Virus record (IMG/VR): IMGVR_UViG_3300029448_000349
Coordinates: 1-26,834 of that record
Length of the DNA stretch: 26,834 nucleotides
Source: a virus
Direction: 5' to 3' (one strand)
Shown: piece by piece, positions 12,813-23,513 of the stretch
How the letters are laid out: each line of letters begins with the position of its first letter
How positions within the stretch are numbered: position 1 is the first letter of the stretch
Position numbers and translations under genes: made by a program
Notes under the pieces: model-generated
What the model saw: the letters and a program-made list of their open reading frames with translations, nothing else
What the model was told of the DNA's origin: nothing
The model's database searches: none

Positions 12813-12984
12813 CGTAAGTGTCTAGGTTCATACCTTCTTTACGCAGAAACACCTGCTCCCAAGTTCTCCATATGTTATCACTGCACTGCACTGTTTCGTG
12901 TTGGTGAACCCAACACCATCTGGCAAAGTAATACCTTTTATCCTCTGCCCATTTTTCTTCTTGCTCTTTAGATGGGTTTAACAT
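12718..12984 (-). CDS. Small hypothetical protein, last gene of the leftward operon
   Basis: 88 residues, starting 17 nt inside the end of the Mom-like gene. It is charged and helical: PSKEQEEKWAEDKRYYFARW, CWVHQHETVQCSDNIWRTWE and a Lys/Gln/Glu-rich tail. Trp, His and two Cys in the middle could form a small folded or metal-binding unit, but no standard motif is complete. The 3' end runs 95 nt into the convergent rightward gene. No leftward intrinsic terminator is evident after it. Function unknown. Confidence 0.6.
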   Translation of the reverse strand: MLNPSKEQEEKWAEDKRYYFARWCWVHQHETVQCSDNIWRTWEQVFLRKEGMNLDTYAKMKQAEQKQRLHEEKNETHSKQEEDQMTLL

Positions 12985-13585
12985 TTTTAGGGTACGGTGA
13001 AACTTTATATCTTAATGCTTGCCTTGCTAACTTCTTAAATCTTTTGTCGCCAACAAAATGTACATAGCGATGCTTGATTGATCTAAGTCTATACCCAACA
13101 TCATCACCATGCTCTTCTTCCATTTGCTTGTAGGTCTTACCCCTGAATGTAGTGTGGTGTAGGTGCGGTCTTGATTTTAAATATATTTCTTTTATAGGTT
13201 TTGTTTGACCAGTATAGGTAAAGTTAGTTGCTTGATAGACTATGCCTAAGTGATCCTGCGCTCCGTCTGCATAACTTACTACAATCTTATTGCCTAACTT
13301 TTTAAGGGTTTGTCCTACTAACTGGGATGCCTCGTTTTTTCTATTGTACTTTAGAACTAATCTATTTAATTCTATAACATCTTTCTTAAACTCTTCGCCG
13401 CATACACCCTTGAGCAATGTATGTGATGGCGGTATACCGTAAGTACATACTCCAACTAACTCTCCATCCTTAAACATACCAAAAGACTTTTGTATTGACG
13501 GCATCCTGTGTGCATAGTGAACATCAAGTATTAAAGGTTTAGTATCTTGATAGTTAATCTCTTCAATTGTGTAGCCTGATTCCAT
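12968..13585 (-). CDS. mom: Mom-like adenine modification protein
   Basis: Resembles the phage Mu Mom family, GNAT-fold proteins that modify adenine in phage DNA (methylcarbamoylation in Mu) and block many restriction enzymes. Visible motifs, counted from ATG 13585: HYAHRMPSIQKSFGMF (23-38), GELVGVCTYGIPPS (41-54), VIELNRLVL (70-78), KNEASQLVG (83-91), IVVSYADGAQDHLGIVYQAT (101-120), then NFTYTGQTKP. The frame stays open to 13693. I chose 13585 (205 residues) because homologous similarity starts there and overlap with the upstream gene is only 23 nt; ATG 13651, with AAGGA upstream, is an alternative. It directly follows a nuclease-like gene. Exact modification and sequence specificity cannot be told from sequence. 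Confidence 0.8.
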   Translation of the reverse strand: MESGYTIEEINYQDTKPLILDVHYAHRMPSIQKSFGMFKDGELVGVCTYGIPPSHTLLKGVCGEEFKKDVIELNRLVLKYNRKNEASQLVGQTLKKLGNKIVVSYADGAQDHLGIVYQATNFTYTGQTKPIKEIYLKSRPHLHHTTFRGKTYKQMEEEHGDDVGYRLRSIKHRYVHFVGDKRFKKLARQALRYKVSPYPKNVKPI

Positions 13586-14051
13586 CAGTGTTGACTGTTC
13601 CGCAGGAATAATCTCGAAGATATTGTGTTGGTATTTTTGCAAACAAATCATCTCTTCCATTCCTTGTTTTAAGTTTAAAGAAGTCATCCTCATCTACACT
13701 GCATTTTAACTTTAGATCATCGTAAATGTCAACTGGATTTACCAAAATAAAATCATCTTCAGTTTCAAATGCAATCATCCTGTCAACCTTTGTTGGCACA
13801 CCCCAACCAATATTACCCGCTACATTTTTAAACTCGTAATAGTGTATTGTAGAATCAACATTTGCATCCCTTCTGTTATTTTTCTTTTTACCTTTTACGT
13901 CAATCTTTCCTTCCTTGCAAAGTATATCCCAATGTTCGTTTCTATCTTCTGATCTTGTTGCTCGTCTGATAAAAGAATCTCCAATCATTTCTATGAATCT
14001 GTCTTCAGTAATAAGACCTTTCTCATAAAAACTTTGCCATTTATTTTTCAT
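13563..14051 (-). CDS. PD-(D/E)XK nuclease-like protein
   Basis: 162 residues. The N-terminal helix carries E21 (FIEMIG), followed by ATRSEDRNEHWDIL with D42, then KIDVKGKKK with D51 and K53. This is the E...D...(D/E)xK arrangement of PD-(D/E)XK nucleases. A later YYEFKNVAGNIGWGV and DRMIAFETEDDFILV fit the core strands of small restriction-endonuclease-like phage proteins. It overlaps the Mom-like gene downstream by 23 nt and the preceding small gene by 11 nt. It could degrade or nick host or unmodified DNA, or process replication intermediates; the partner choice is inference. Confidence 0.7.
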   Translation of the reverse strand: MKNKWQSFYEKGLITEDRFIEMIGDSFIRRATRSEDRNEHWDILCKEGKIDVKGKKKNNRRDANVDSTIHYYEFKNVAGNIGWGVPTKVDRMIAFETEDDFILVNPVDIYDDLKLKCSVDEDDFFKLKTRNGRDDLFAKIPTQYLRDYSCGTVNTDGIRLHN

Positions 14052-21747: not shown

Positions 21748-22083
21748 TTACCTTAAGTATTTTGTGCCGTTATGGTCAATTGATGACTCGCCAACATCAT
21801 CAGCGTTGATGTTACCACGAATCGCCAGTTTGCCAGATTTATCCCTAATTGGGGACTTCCAACTGCCCTTGACAATATCGCCAGATTCAATGTCAACAAA
21901 TGAGTGAACTGATCTTGCTTCCCCAAAAGATGCGAAATATATTCTGGCGAACCGTTTGCCGATGCTAAACTCAATCGTTTGGTCATCAAGATGGGTAAAT
22001 CCCATGCGAGTCTGATATTCTTTATTTAATCGTGCTACCAGTTTTCTGTATTTTTCGATTCTTAAGATTTTATCTGCGTACAT
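21748..22083 (-). CDS. First gene of the leftward early operon, unknown
   Basis: 111 residues from ATG 22083. The frame is open to 22143, but that upstream ATG lies within the -35 box of the operon promoter and cannot be in its transcript. The protein has a helical, basic N-terminus (KILRIEKYRKLVARLNKEYQ), then FSIGKRFARIYFASFGEARS and GDIVKGSWKSPIRDKSGKLA, RGNINADDVG. The 'R.ARIYF...GEARSVHSFVD..SGDI.K.ASWK.P......RGN' pattern is common in aquatic phages. Function unknown. Confidence 0.7.
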   Translation of the reverse strand: MYADKILRIEKYRKLVARLNKEYQTRMGFTHLDDQTIEFSIGKRFARIYFASFGEARSVHSFVDIESGDIVKGSWKSPIRDKSGKLAIRGNINADDVGESSIDHNGTKYLR

Positions 22084-22114
22084 TTTTTTGCTCTTGGTTT
22101 GTTTCAGTAGGGCG

Positions 22115-22143
22115 ACTATAAAACAGGTAAATTTGATTGTCAA
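22115..22143 (-). promoter_or_regulatory. Strong sigma70 promoter for the leftward early operon
   Basis: Read on the minus strand: TTGACA (22143-22138), a 17-nt spacer, then TATAGT (22120-22115). The -35 box is consensus and the -10 box matches 5 of 6. Transcription should begin near 22108, giving a leader of about 25 nt to ATG 22083. All leftward genes down to 12718 are tightly packed behind it, with no other clear promoter seen. Confidence 0.85.
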
Positions 22144-22262
22144 GAATTATTTTAAAAAACGTAGCAATTAATTATCTTTTTCCTGGGTTTCCCTTTATTA
22201 TCAATTACTTACCTTAAAAGATAATAATAACAGGAAGTTTTTTTCTTTTTTTATTCTATCTG

Positions 22263-22271
22263 TGGTACAAT
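22263..22271 (+). promoter_or_regulatory. Candidate extended -10 promoter, rightward
   Basis: TGGTACAAT matches the extended -10 form TGnTATAAT in all but one base. No good -35 box is found 17 nt upstream, where the sequence is a T-rich tract, but extended -10 promoters do not need one. Transcription would begin near 22278 and run through the hairpin-rich region into the gene at 22639. Confidence 0.45.
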
Positions 22272-22277
22272 CTCAGT

Positions 22278-22620
22278 TGAGCGGGTCAAGACTCATTAAA
22301 TTATAGGGCTGATTATCCCTACATCTTGCCAAAAGTAATCACTTATATGGGCGCTAAAGACGGCGTTGGAAACAGGCAAACACTGACATTCTAAGAATGG
22401 GTCTTTGGTTTCACAGCCAATCAAAATAACTGTACCTGACAAACCATATATTTTAAACCTTCGGGGGTTAACAATAACCCATACCGAATTATGACTGGGG
22501 TCAGTACGGTCTTATTGACAATTATAAATTGAACGATAGGCAGAACCTATCAATTACTAAACTGGTATTTAAGGCTATCAAACGATAGTTTATATCTATC
22601 ACTGAATTAGATGACCTATA
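22278..22620 (+). ncRNA. Hairpin-rich region, candidate structured RNA or origin
   Basis: A stretch of about 340 nt with no plausible gene on either strand but many short inverted repeats: TAGGG/CCCTA (22304-22308, 22317-22321); TTGCC/GGCAA (22326-22330, 22375-22379) enclosing AAGT/ACTT; CATTC/GAATG (22387-22391, 22395-22399); TTCGG-GGGTTA/TAACCC-CCGAA (22460-22470, 22475-22488) with a 3-nt bulge; ACTG/CAGT (22494-22505); and GATAGG/CCTATC (22535-22551). It follows a possible extended -10 promoter. It does not look like a tRNA, tmRNA or any RNA family I can name. A replication origin is an alternative. Strand is inferred from the promoter. Confidence 0.4.
22535..22600. repeat. Cluster of GATAG/CTATC inverted repeats
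   Basis: GATAGG at 22535-22540 and CCTATC at 22546-22551 form a 6-bp stem with a 5-nt loop. CTATC (22575-22579), GATAG (22584-22588) and CTATC (22596-22600) follow. AACGATAG occurs twice, at 22532 and 22581, 49 nt apart. Repeats of one short core in both orientations just upstream of a gene look like operator or iteron sites for a DNA-binding protein. Confidence 0.45.
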
Positions 22621-22638
22621 AAGTAATAGGCTAAGGTT

Positions 22639-22806
22639 ATGAGTAGCGACAAAGAAACAAAATTAAAACGACGCAACCTAGTAGCCAAACATTCCCACAA
22701 ATTTAATAAGGGATATACGCATAAAACAAAGGTTGCCTATAATCGCAAATCTAAGGCGCTACAACGCGACCTAAACGATACCCTAGGGGATAACCCTATA
22801 GATTGA
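22639..22806 (+). CDS. 55-residue basic protein, DUF7230-like
   Basis: Open frame from ATG 22639 to TGA 22804-22806, the only rightward gene between the two leftward operons. AGG lies at a suitable distance upstream. The core RRNLVAKHSHKFNKGYTHKT then KVAYNRKSKAL matches the pattern 'RN.VAKH..KFN......D.K..YKRK.K' that I recall as DUF7230. It is strongly basic, with an acidic tail (NDTLGDNPID). Function unknown; RNA or DNA binding is likely from composition. It could share a transcript with the structured region upstream. Confidence 0.65.
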   Translation: MSSDKETKLKRRNLVAKHSHKFNKGYTHKTKVAYNRKSKALQRDLNDTLGDNPID

Positions 22807-22928: not shown

Positions 22929-23513
22929 CTATTTCACCGCTTCAATTATGACGTTTGTCCCATTGTGTTTGTAGCACATGAGGCAGTCAATACATTTTTT
23001 GCCAGTGCAATTTTGCTTTATCCCTGAATCCTTATCCACGTTATTGAATACCTTGTCAAAGCCCCTAGGAACGCCGATAACCTTATCAATTCGAGGATTG
23101 GAGAATATCAAAATAAGATTGCTGGGAACATCCGCAATTTGTCGCACAATTGACGCTCGTTTTGTCCAAAGTGTAAACGTGCAGTGCGGATTCTTTTTGG
23201 CAATGTTAATGATGTTTTTGTAGTGGTTTAGGTTTATCAATTCCCCATGGCCGTTAAATCTAAAATATGCTTGATTAATTATCGGCAACAAATCCCAGTC
23301 GATTAAATCTTTCATCAATTCGCTGTTATGCTGAAAGGCAGGAACGCAGGATTTTCTAAACGTGGTTAACATCTTATGCGAATAACATTTTCCACAAATG
23401 GTATCGGTTGACTTTTGACGGATACAAAACTCATTCGTTGTAGTATCGGTATTGATTGCGCCAATGCCTTGAAGTTTACCGCTCATTTTGCTGATTTTGA
23501 TTTGTTGGATCAT
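22929..23513 (-). CDS. GP88-like cysteine-rich phage protein
   Basis: 194 residues. It matches the 'gene product 88' phage family by motif order: KMSGKLQGIGAINTDTTTN, FCIRQKSTDTICGKCYSHKM with C30, C40 and C43, AYFRFNGHGELINLNHYKN, FTLWTKRA, LILIFSNPRIDKVI, and a C-terminal NCTGKKCIDCLMCYKHN with C169, C174, C177 and C180. Two cysteine clusters suggest bound zinc or an iron-sulphur cluster. The biochemical role of the family is not known to me. It has its own GGAATAAAA leader and lies between two leftward terminators, so it may be expressed at a different level from the genes upstream. Confidence 0.8.
   Translation of the reverse strand: MIQQIKISKMSGKLQGIGAINTDTTTNEFCIRQKSTDTICGKCYSHKMLTTFRKSCVPAFQHNSELMKDLIDWDLLPIINQAYFRFNGHGELINLNHYKNIINIAKKNPHCTFTLWTKRASIVRQIADVPSNLILIFSNPRIDKVIGVPRGFDKVFNNVDKDSGIKQNCTGKKCIDCLMCYKHNGTNVIIEAVK

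Follow-up and report, generated by a model that had tools for sequence, protein, structure and literature searches.

A pseudoknot-rich structured RNA with alternative cores upstream of a DUF7230 gene in genomes of uncultured phages

GOLLD and ROOL, which like the RNA presented here are phage- or prophage-borne, pseudoknot-rich and noncoding RNAs without an established role (PMC12286853), appear to be the known systems nearest in spirit to the family described in this study. GOLLD comprises one conserved and one less conserved region, is often longer than 800 nt and, like ROOL, is usually found near tRNA islands (PMC12286853), whereas the stretch of viral DNA analysed here in full (26,834 nt, hereafter the window) contains no tRNA, no Rfam match and no match to the GOLLD or ROOL family covariance models. 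The nearest model for a cis-acting role would be the leader of T4 gene 32, in which a pseudoknot is located on the 5' side of the mRNA of a phage protein that binds nucleic acid (PMC535899); that leader carries one small pseudoknot and acts through autogenous binding, whereas here the fold spans 250 nt and autogenous binding would be a possibility. Type III toxin-antitoxin systems resemble the locus in carrying a pseudoknotted RNA (ToxI) upstream of a co-transcribed protein gene, and differ from it in their toxin nuclease, in place of which we find a 55-aa DUF7230 protein (PMC5086642). Their class is recognised by tandem antitoxin repeats before a ToxN/AbiQ/CptN-type nuclease; a search for such repeats, its hallmark, found none here, and the downstream protein matches DUF7230 only. 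The phi29 packaging RNA is a further folded noncoding phage RNA, which differs from the window RNA in size, genome context and fold, and which gave no match in the Rfam search.

The locus and its homologs

The window is the linear IMG/VR virus record IMGVR_UViG_3300029448_000349 (26.8 kb), whose 611-aa structural protein shows 33-40% identity to podoviruses, e.g. Pseudomonas phages tf, NV1 and DL54; elsewhere it encodes a Mom-like DNA modification protein (12968-13693, - strand; Pfam Mom, E 3e-36). A first-pass annotation had singled out a hairpin-dense, gene-free region (22278-22620) as a possible new structured RNA or origin. This region is flanked on the left by a divergent leftward gene (21748-22143, DUF7717 in Pfam) and on the right by a convergent gene (22929-23513, GP88 in Pfam). 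Within 22278-22620 the ORF list contains no + strand ORF of at least 60 aa, and neither ARAGORN nor Rfam identified a tRNA or tmRNA gene. Just beyond the end of these positions, however, a DUF7230 gene below the default ORF-list length begins, its match exceeding the Pfam curated cut-off of 27 bits, which makes the region a presumably transcribed stretch ahead of a gene. The extended -10 promoter said to point into it proved real and predicts initiation at about 22278-22279, the position of helix P1. A search for + strand terminators between the RNA and the DUF7230 ORF was negative.

On the opposite strand, a near-consensus sigma-70 promoter (TTGACA-17-TATAGT, 22115-22143, - strand), divergent from the RNA promoter, drives the leftward gene cluster. 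Between these promoters and just upstream of the RNA is a 10-bp inverted repeat, ATTATCTTTT/AAAAGATAAT (22171-22180 / 22216-22225), whose arms enclose a conserved ATCAATnACTTA motif (22200-22211) that is inverted in L028, L118 and L126; repeat and motif together look like an operator.

Searching viral contigs with the DUF7230 ORF yielded nine near relatives (DNA 86-91% identical across the region) as well as diverged ones, and further homologs were obtained from pattern scans with conserved stretches and a helicase-alignment scan. The type-A analysis set comprises 18 distinct full-length sequences; two partial type-A members, L050 and L081, were found via a covariance model. Covariance model R1, built from 7 sequences with the window and its near relatives left out, matches the window at 22283-22526 (118.6 bits, E 1.6e-32).

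Comparisons with known families were negative. In Rfam 15, no family reached its gathering threshold for the window, and relaxed thresholds (E up to 5-10), applied to the window and four homologs of types A and B, gave chance-level matches at most; an alpha_tmRNA match in L036, which scores 12.7 bits where the cut-off is 50 and extends into the ORF, was rejected. A blastn search of three members against 50,697 phage records returned nothing substantial, while a pattern scan of genome contigs gave 20 matches, about the chance expectation, of which the covariance model confirmed none. DUF7230 goes unmentioned in the literature searched, and a broader literature search revealed no matching system. 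The RNA matches no known family, though it could still turn out to act in an already familiar way.

Covariation and the fold of the RNA

Folding energy by itself is modestly unusual (z = -2.9 for 22278-22638, -2.1 for the RNA core and -2.3 for the minus strand) and constitutes weak evidence; nor would hairpin density alone settle the case for a structured RNA. The comparison of homologous regions bears out the first-pass reading, with covarying base pairs far beyond controls, from which we consider the RNA structure almost certainly real. In a MAFFT alignment unfitted to structure, 82.4% of cells are paired, compared with 67.2% for shuffles and 36-42% for slid partners, and the covariation score is 0.422, compared with 0.170 for shuffles and 0.05-0.10 for slid structures. 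Column pairs were evaluated against a null that preserves the tree and, on each branch, its substitutions, in our own implementation after R-scape rather than R-scape itself. In the curated alignment the five top-ranked pairs under this null are all proposed pairs, and six column pairs reach E<=0.05, five being proposed pairs and the sixth revealing an additional helix, P13. In a separate L-INS-i alignment, again unfitted, the 27,730 column pairs include five significant ones (E<=0.05), every one of them a proposed base pair: two in P8, one in P2 and two in P13. Because P13 had entered the structure through the first test on these very sequences, its return serves as a check on the alignment rather than as new data. 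New data are provided by the type-B counterpart of P13, which shows five different pair sets in five sequences. Among these 18 related sequences, most helices taken singly fall short of significance. Helix cells overall comprise 801 Watson-Crick, 65 G-U and 12 A-C combinations, with 11 of the 12 A-C cells at one doubtful P1 position; the large excess of G-U over A-C argues that the + strand RNA is the conserved molecule.

Helices were segmented by hand and checked letter by letter against the loci (Table 1). In type A, eleven (P1, P2, P3, P4, P5, P6, P8, P9, P10, P11 and P12) are conserved in the 18 homologs; nearly all helices carry compensatory changes and nearly all pairs are kept, the exceptions including P10 and P11, with some broken outer pairs, and P9, unassigned in L051. 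P4 encloses a central domain made up of P5, P6 and the P8/P13 pseudoknot, in which P13 joins the P8 loop to the strand preceding P6 and is paired in 18/18 sequences with six different sets. Since P3 and P12 are absent from the covariance model, their pairing is not a product of fitting. P12 retains 6/6 pairs in 18/18 sequences with six pair sets, including AUUGAC/GUCAAU (L006, L036), GUUGCC/GGCAAC (L024, L030) and GAUGGC/GCCAUC (L012), and in the curated alignment one of its pairs reaches E<0.005. Covariation is also seen for a local GCC/GGC helix in this part of the RNA, but that helix shares a strand with the much better P12 and was set aside as a possible alternative.

By these comparisons the pseudoknots P2/P3, P8/P13 and P11/P12 are supported. 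A fourth, P14, linking the P5 loop to the 3' tail, is likely: it forms 4-6 bp in 18/18 sequences but is almost invariant in type A, so that it is inferred from near-invariant complementarity together with a type-B equivalent, GGCAACCC/GGGUUGCC, which covaries at one pair. These three pseudoknots and likely fourth, the strand-specific G-U pairs and the lack of an Rfam match strongly support the proposal of a new structured RNA. As to its details, the 11-bp stem reported in the first pass is real, has an ATA bulge and an ACAA loop, and corresponds to conserved helices P9 and P10. A TTGCC/GGCAA pair, thought to enclose a further hairpin, found no support, as homologs do not keep this pairing; TTGCC falls in the strand joining P2 and P3, and GGCAA overlaps P6 and its 3' flank. 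The hairpins listed there are conserved only in part, those after about 22530 being located in a linker that differs between homologs.

Table 1. Positions of promoter, RNA helices, linker and DUF7230 gene in the window
Feature	Position	Strand	Remarks
Extended -10 promoter TGgTACAAT	22263..22271	+	Sequence; most homologs carry a comparable -10 element in this position
Structured RNA, type A, 248 nt	22279..22526	+	R1 match; covariation
P1 hairpin GAGc/aCUC	22279-22282 with 22291-22294	+	3/4 pairs only in window-like members
P2/P3 H-type pseudoknot	22305..22340	+	P2 and P3 paired in 18/18
P2	22305-22308/22317-22320	+	
P3	22311-22316/22335-22340	+	Outside covariance model
P4 AUAUGG/CCAUAU	22345-22350 with 22444-22449	+	Many pair sets; paired in 18/18
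P5 hairpin	22351-22354 with 22363-22366	+	Loop UAAAGACG 22355-22362
P14, candidate pseudoknot	P5 loop 22357-22361 AAGAC with 3' tail 22509-22513 GUCUU	+	
P6 CAGG/CCUG	22373-22376 with 22435-22438	+	Sets CAGG/CCUG, CAAG/CUUG, CGAG/CUCG
P12 long-range pseudoknot ACUGAC/GUCAGU	22382-22387 with P11 loop 22500-22505	+	
P8/P13 pseudoknot	22405..22433	+	P8 22405-22408/22417-22420; P13 22413-22415/22431-22433
P9 + P10	22460..22488	+	Conserved CACAAGA-like loop
P11 hairpin ACUG/CGGU	22494..22510	+	Loop forms P12
Conserved 3' tail CUUAUUGACAAUUAUA	22511..22526	+	Alignments
Variable linker, window-clade hairpins	22527..22638	+	RNA end to ORF 25-141 nt in type-A homologs
55-aa basic protein, DUF7230 (PF23876)	22639..22806	+	Pfam E 1.4e-6, 28.8 bits

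Alternative cores and the DUF7230 neighbour

The DUF7230 ORF is present 3' of every homologous RNA with enough downstream sequence. The genes on both sides of the RNA-DUF7230 unit differ between homologs, and on this comparison RNA and DUF7230 are kept as a unit while their surroundings change. The linker between them varies in length and sequence, and neither a shared element masking the DUF7230 start site nor a conserved expression platform was seen in it among the homologs. A hairpin, GUUGUA..UACAAC, before the DUF7230 start was rejected, being perfect in some members only and broken in L012, L024, L127 and L131. Shine-Dalgarno pairing is weak at DUF7230 starts, with a median of -2.9 vs -5.6 kcal/mol for other window genes (Mann-Whitney p 0.001, uncorrected for relatedness and with start sites of our choosing).

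DUF7230 is also found without this RNA in other phages (L015-L020, L164, L168, L170), of which L164, L168 and L170 have TTATCCACA-like (DnaA-box-like) repeats upstream of it. In L011 (2-403), an HNH, endonuclease-VII-like ORF overlaps the DUF7230 start, the sequence further upstream lying off the contig. A DUF7230 variant without the RRN-VAKH motif (L111:2014-2169, - strand) is still located 3' of a type-B RNA.

Type B occupies the same locus before the DUF7230 ORF in L118, L126, L127, L128, L131 and L111 (and copies). It has in common with type A the helices P1, P2/P3, P4, P5, P6 and P8/P13 and the loop-tail pairing, and differs in its interior and 3' part, with a length of about 270-300 nt. 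A third form, type C, is represented by one sequence (L143:4860-5098, - strand), with the same P1-P3 domain, a similar tail and a core that looks unrelated; type-A models detect types B and C weakly. The core types are scattered over a tree built from 23 helicase rows, and parsimony requires six changes for the three types and five for A and B alone, with four changes for A and three for B forced by well-supported branches. L143 (type C) and L144 (type A) are close sisters on this tree, while L030, whose helicase is 99% identical to that of the window, has window-like RNA ends and a very different core. Furthermore, types A and B are both found with both main DUF7230 alleles. We interpret this pattern as an exchange of core cassettes while the ends stay constant, and infer selection for core diversity.

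Proposed function and alternative readings

We favour, with about an even chance of being correct, the reading in which this region encodes a noncoding RNA that folds over about 250 nt and would act in trans, over that of a cis-acting leader. An RNA polymerase of the sigma-70 type would start synthesis from the extended -10 promoter, and because no + strand terminator was found between the RNA and DUF7230, the transcript probably continues into this ORF, the folded RNA forming its 5' portion. Less certainly, the folded RNA would be the main product and would work in trans, with the basic DUF7230 protein as a putative binding partner. The target contacted by the variable core may change with the host or with the competing phage (e.g. 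a factor in host defence or regulation), and the repeated replacement of the core between constant ends would thereby be explained.

A folded 5' stretch of mRNA is most often cis-regulatory, however, and the invariant pairing with DUF7230 suits a leader equally well. It is quite possible, although short of an even chance, that the RNA controls DUF7230 translation or stability as a 5' leader, for instance through autogenous binding of the basic protein, in the manner of the T4 gene 32 leader pseudoknot, where the gene product represses its own translation, or through ligand sensing, given that it is located between a promoter and an ORF that always adjoins it, with no + strand terminator found, and that translation from the weak Shine-Dalgarno pairing may depend on upstream structure. 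Our leaning towards a trans-acting RNA arises from the lack of a shared expression platform in the 25-141 nt linker and from core swaps that are independent of the DUF7230 allele, the two combining freely; in addition, an RNA of about 250 nt that contains three or four pseudoknots is large for a leader.

That the RNA instead belongs to one of the known large classes (group I intron, tmRNA, RNase P or GOLLD/ROOL) and has diverged so far that the models miss it is suggested by its richness in pseudoknots and by its more constant and more variable parts, which recall GOLLD (PMC12286853); this appears highly unlikely, since members of types A and B give no Rfam match beyond chance level and the size and order of the helices differ. 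Extremely unlikely is a DNA element, whether a replication origin or a protein-binding site, for which the non-coding, hairpin-rich character of the region and the 10-bp inverted repeat between divergent promoters could be cited. The origin reading of the first-pass annotation was rejected on the asymmetry between G-U pairs, which persist, and A-C pairs, which do not, and a DNA element is further disfavoured by the interleaved, single-strand pairing of the pseudoknots, by the promoter at the start of the region and by the tie to the following ORF.

A bolder and less likely extension of the trans-acting reading is that these RNAs form a new class of phage noncoding RNA, in which the 5' pseudoknot domain stays constant and the cores (A, B and perhaps C) can be exchanged; its members would act in trans with DUF7230 as partner, and conflict with rival phages or with the defences of the host would keep them diverse. 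The family, with at least three and probably four pseudoknots, joins the short list of large phage RNAs lacking an assigned function. A constant protein neighbour, together with cores swapped naturally among phages that are otherwise alike, is an unusual combination that makes the role of the RNA directly testable. The family also provides an entry point to the so far uncharacterised DUF7230 proteins.
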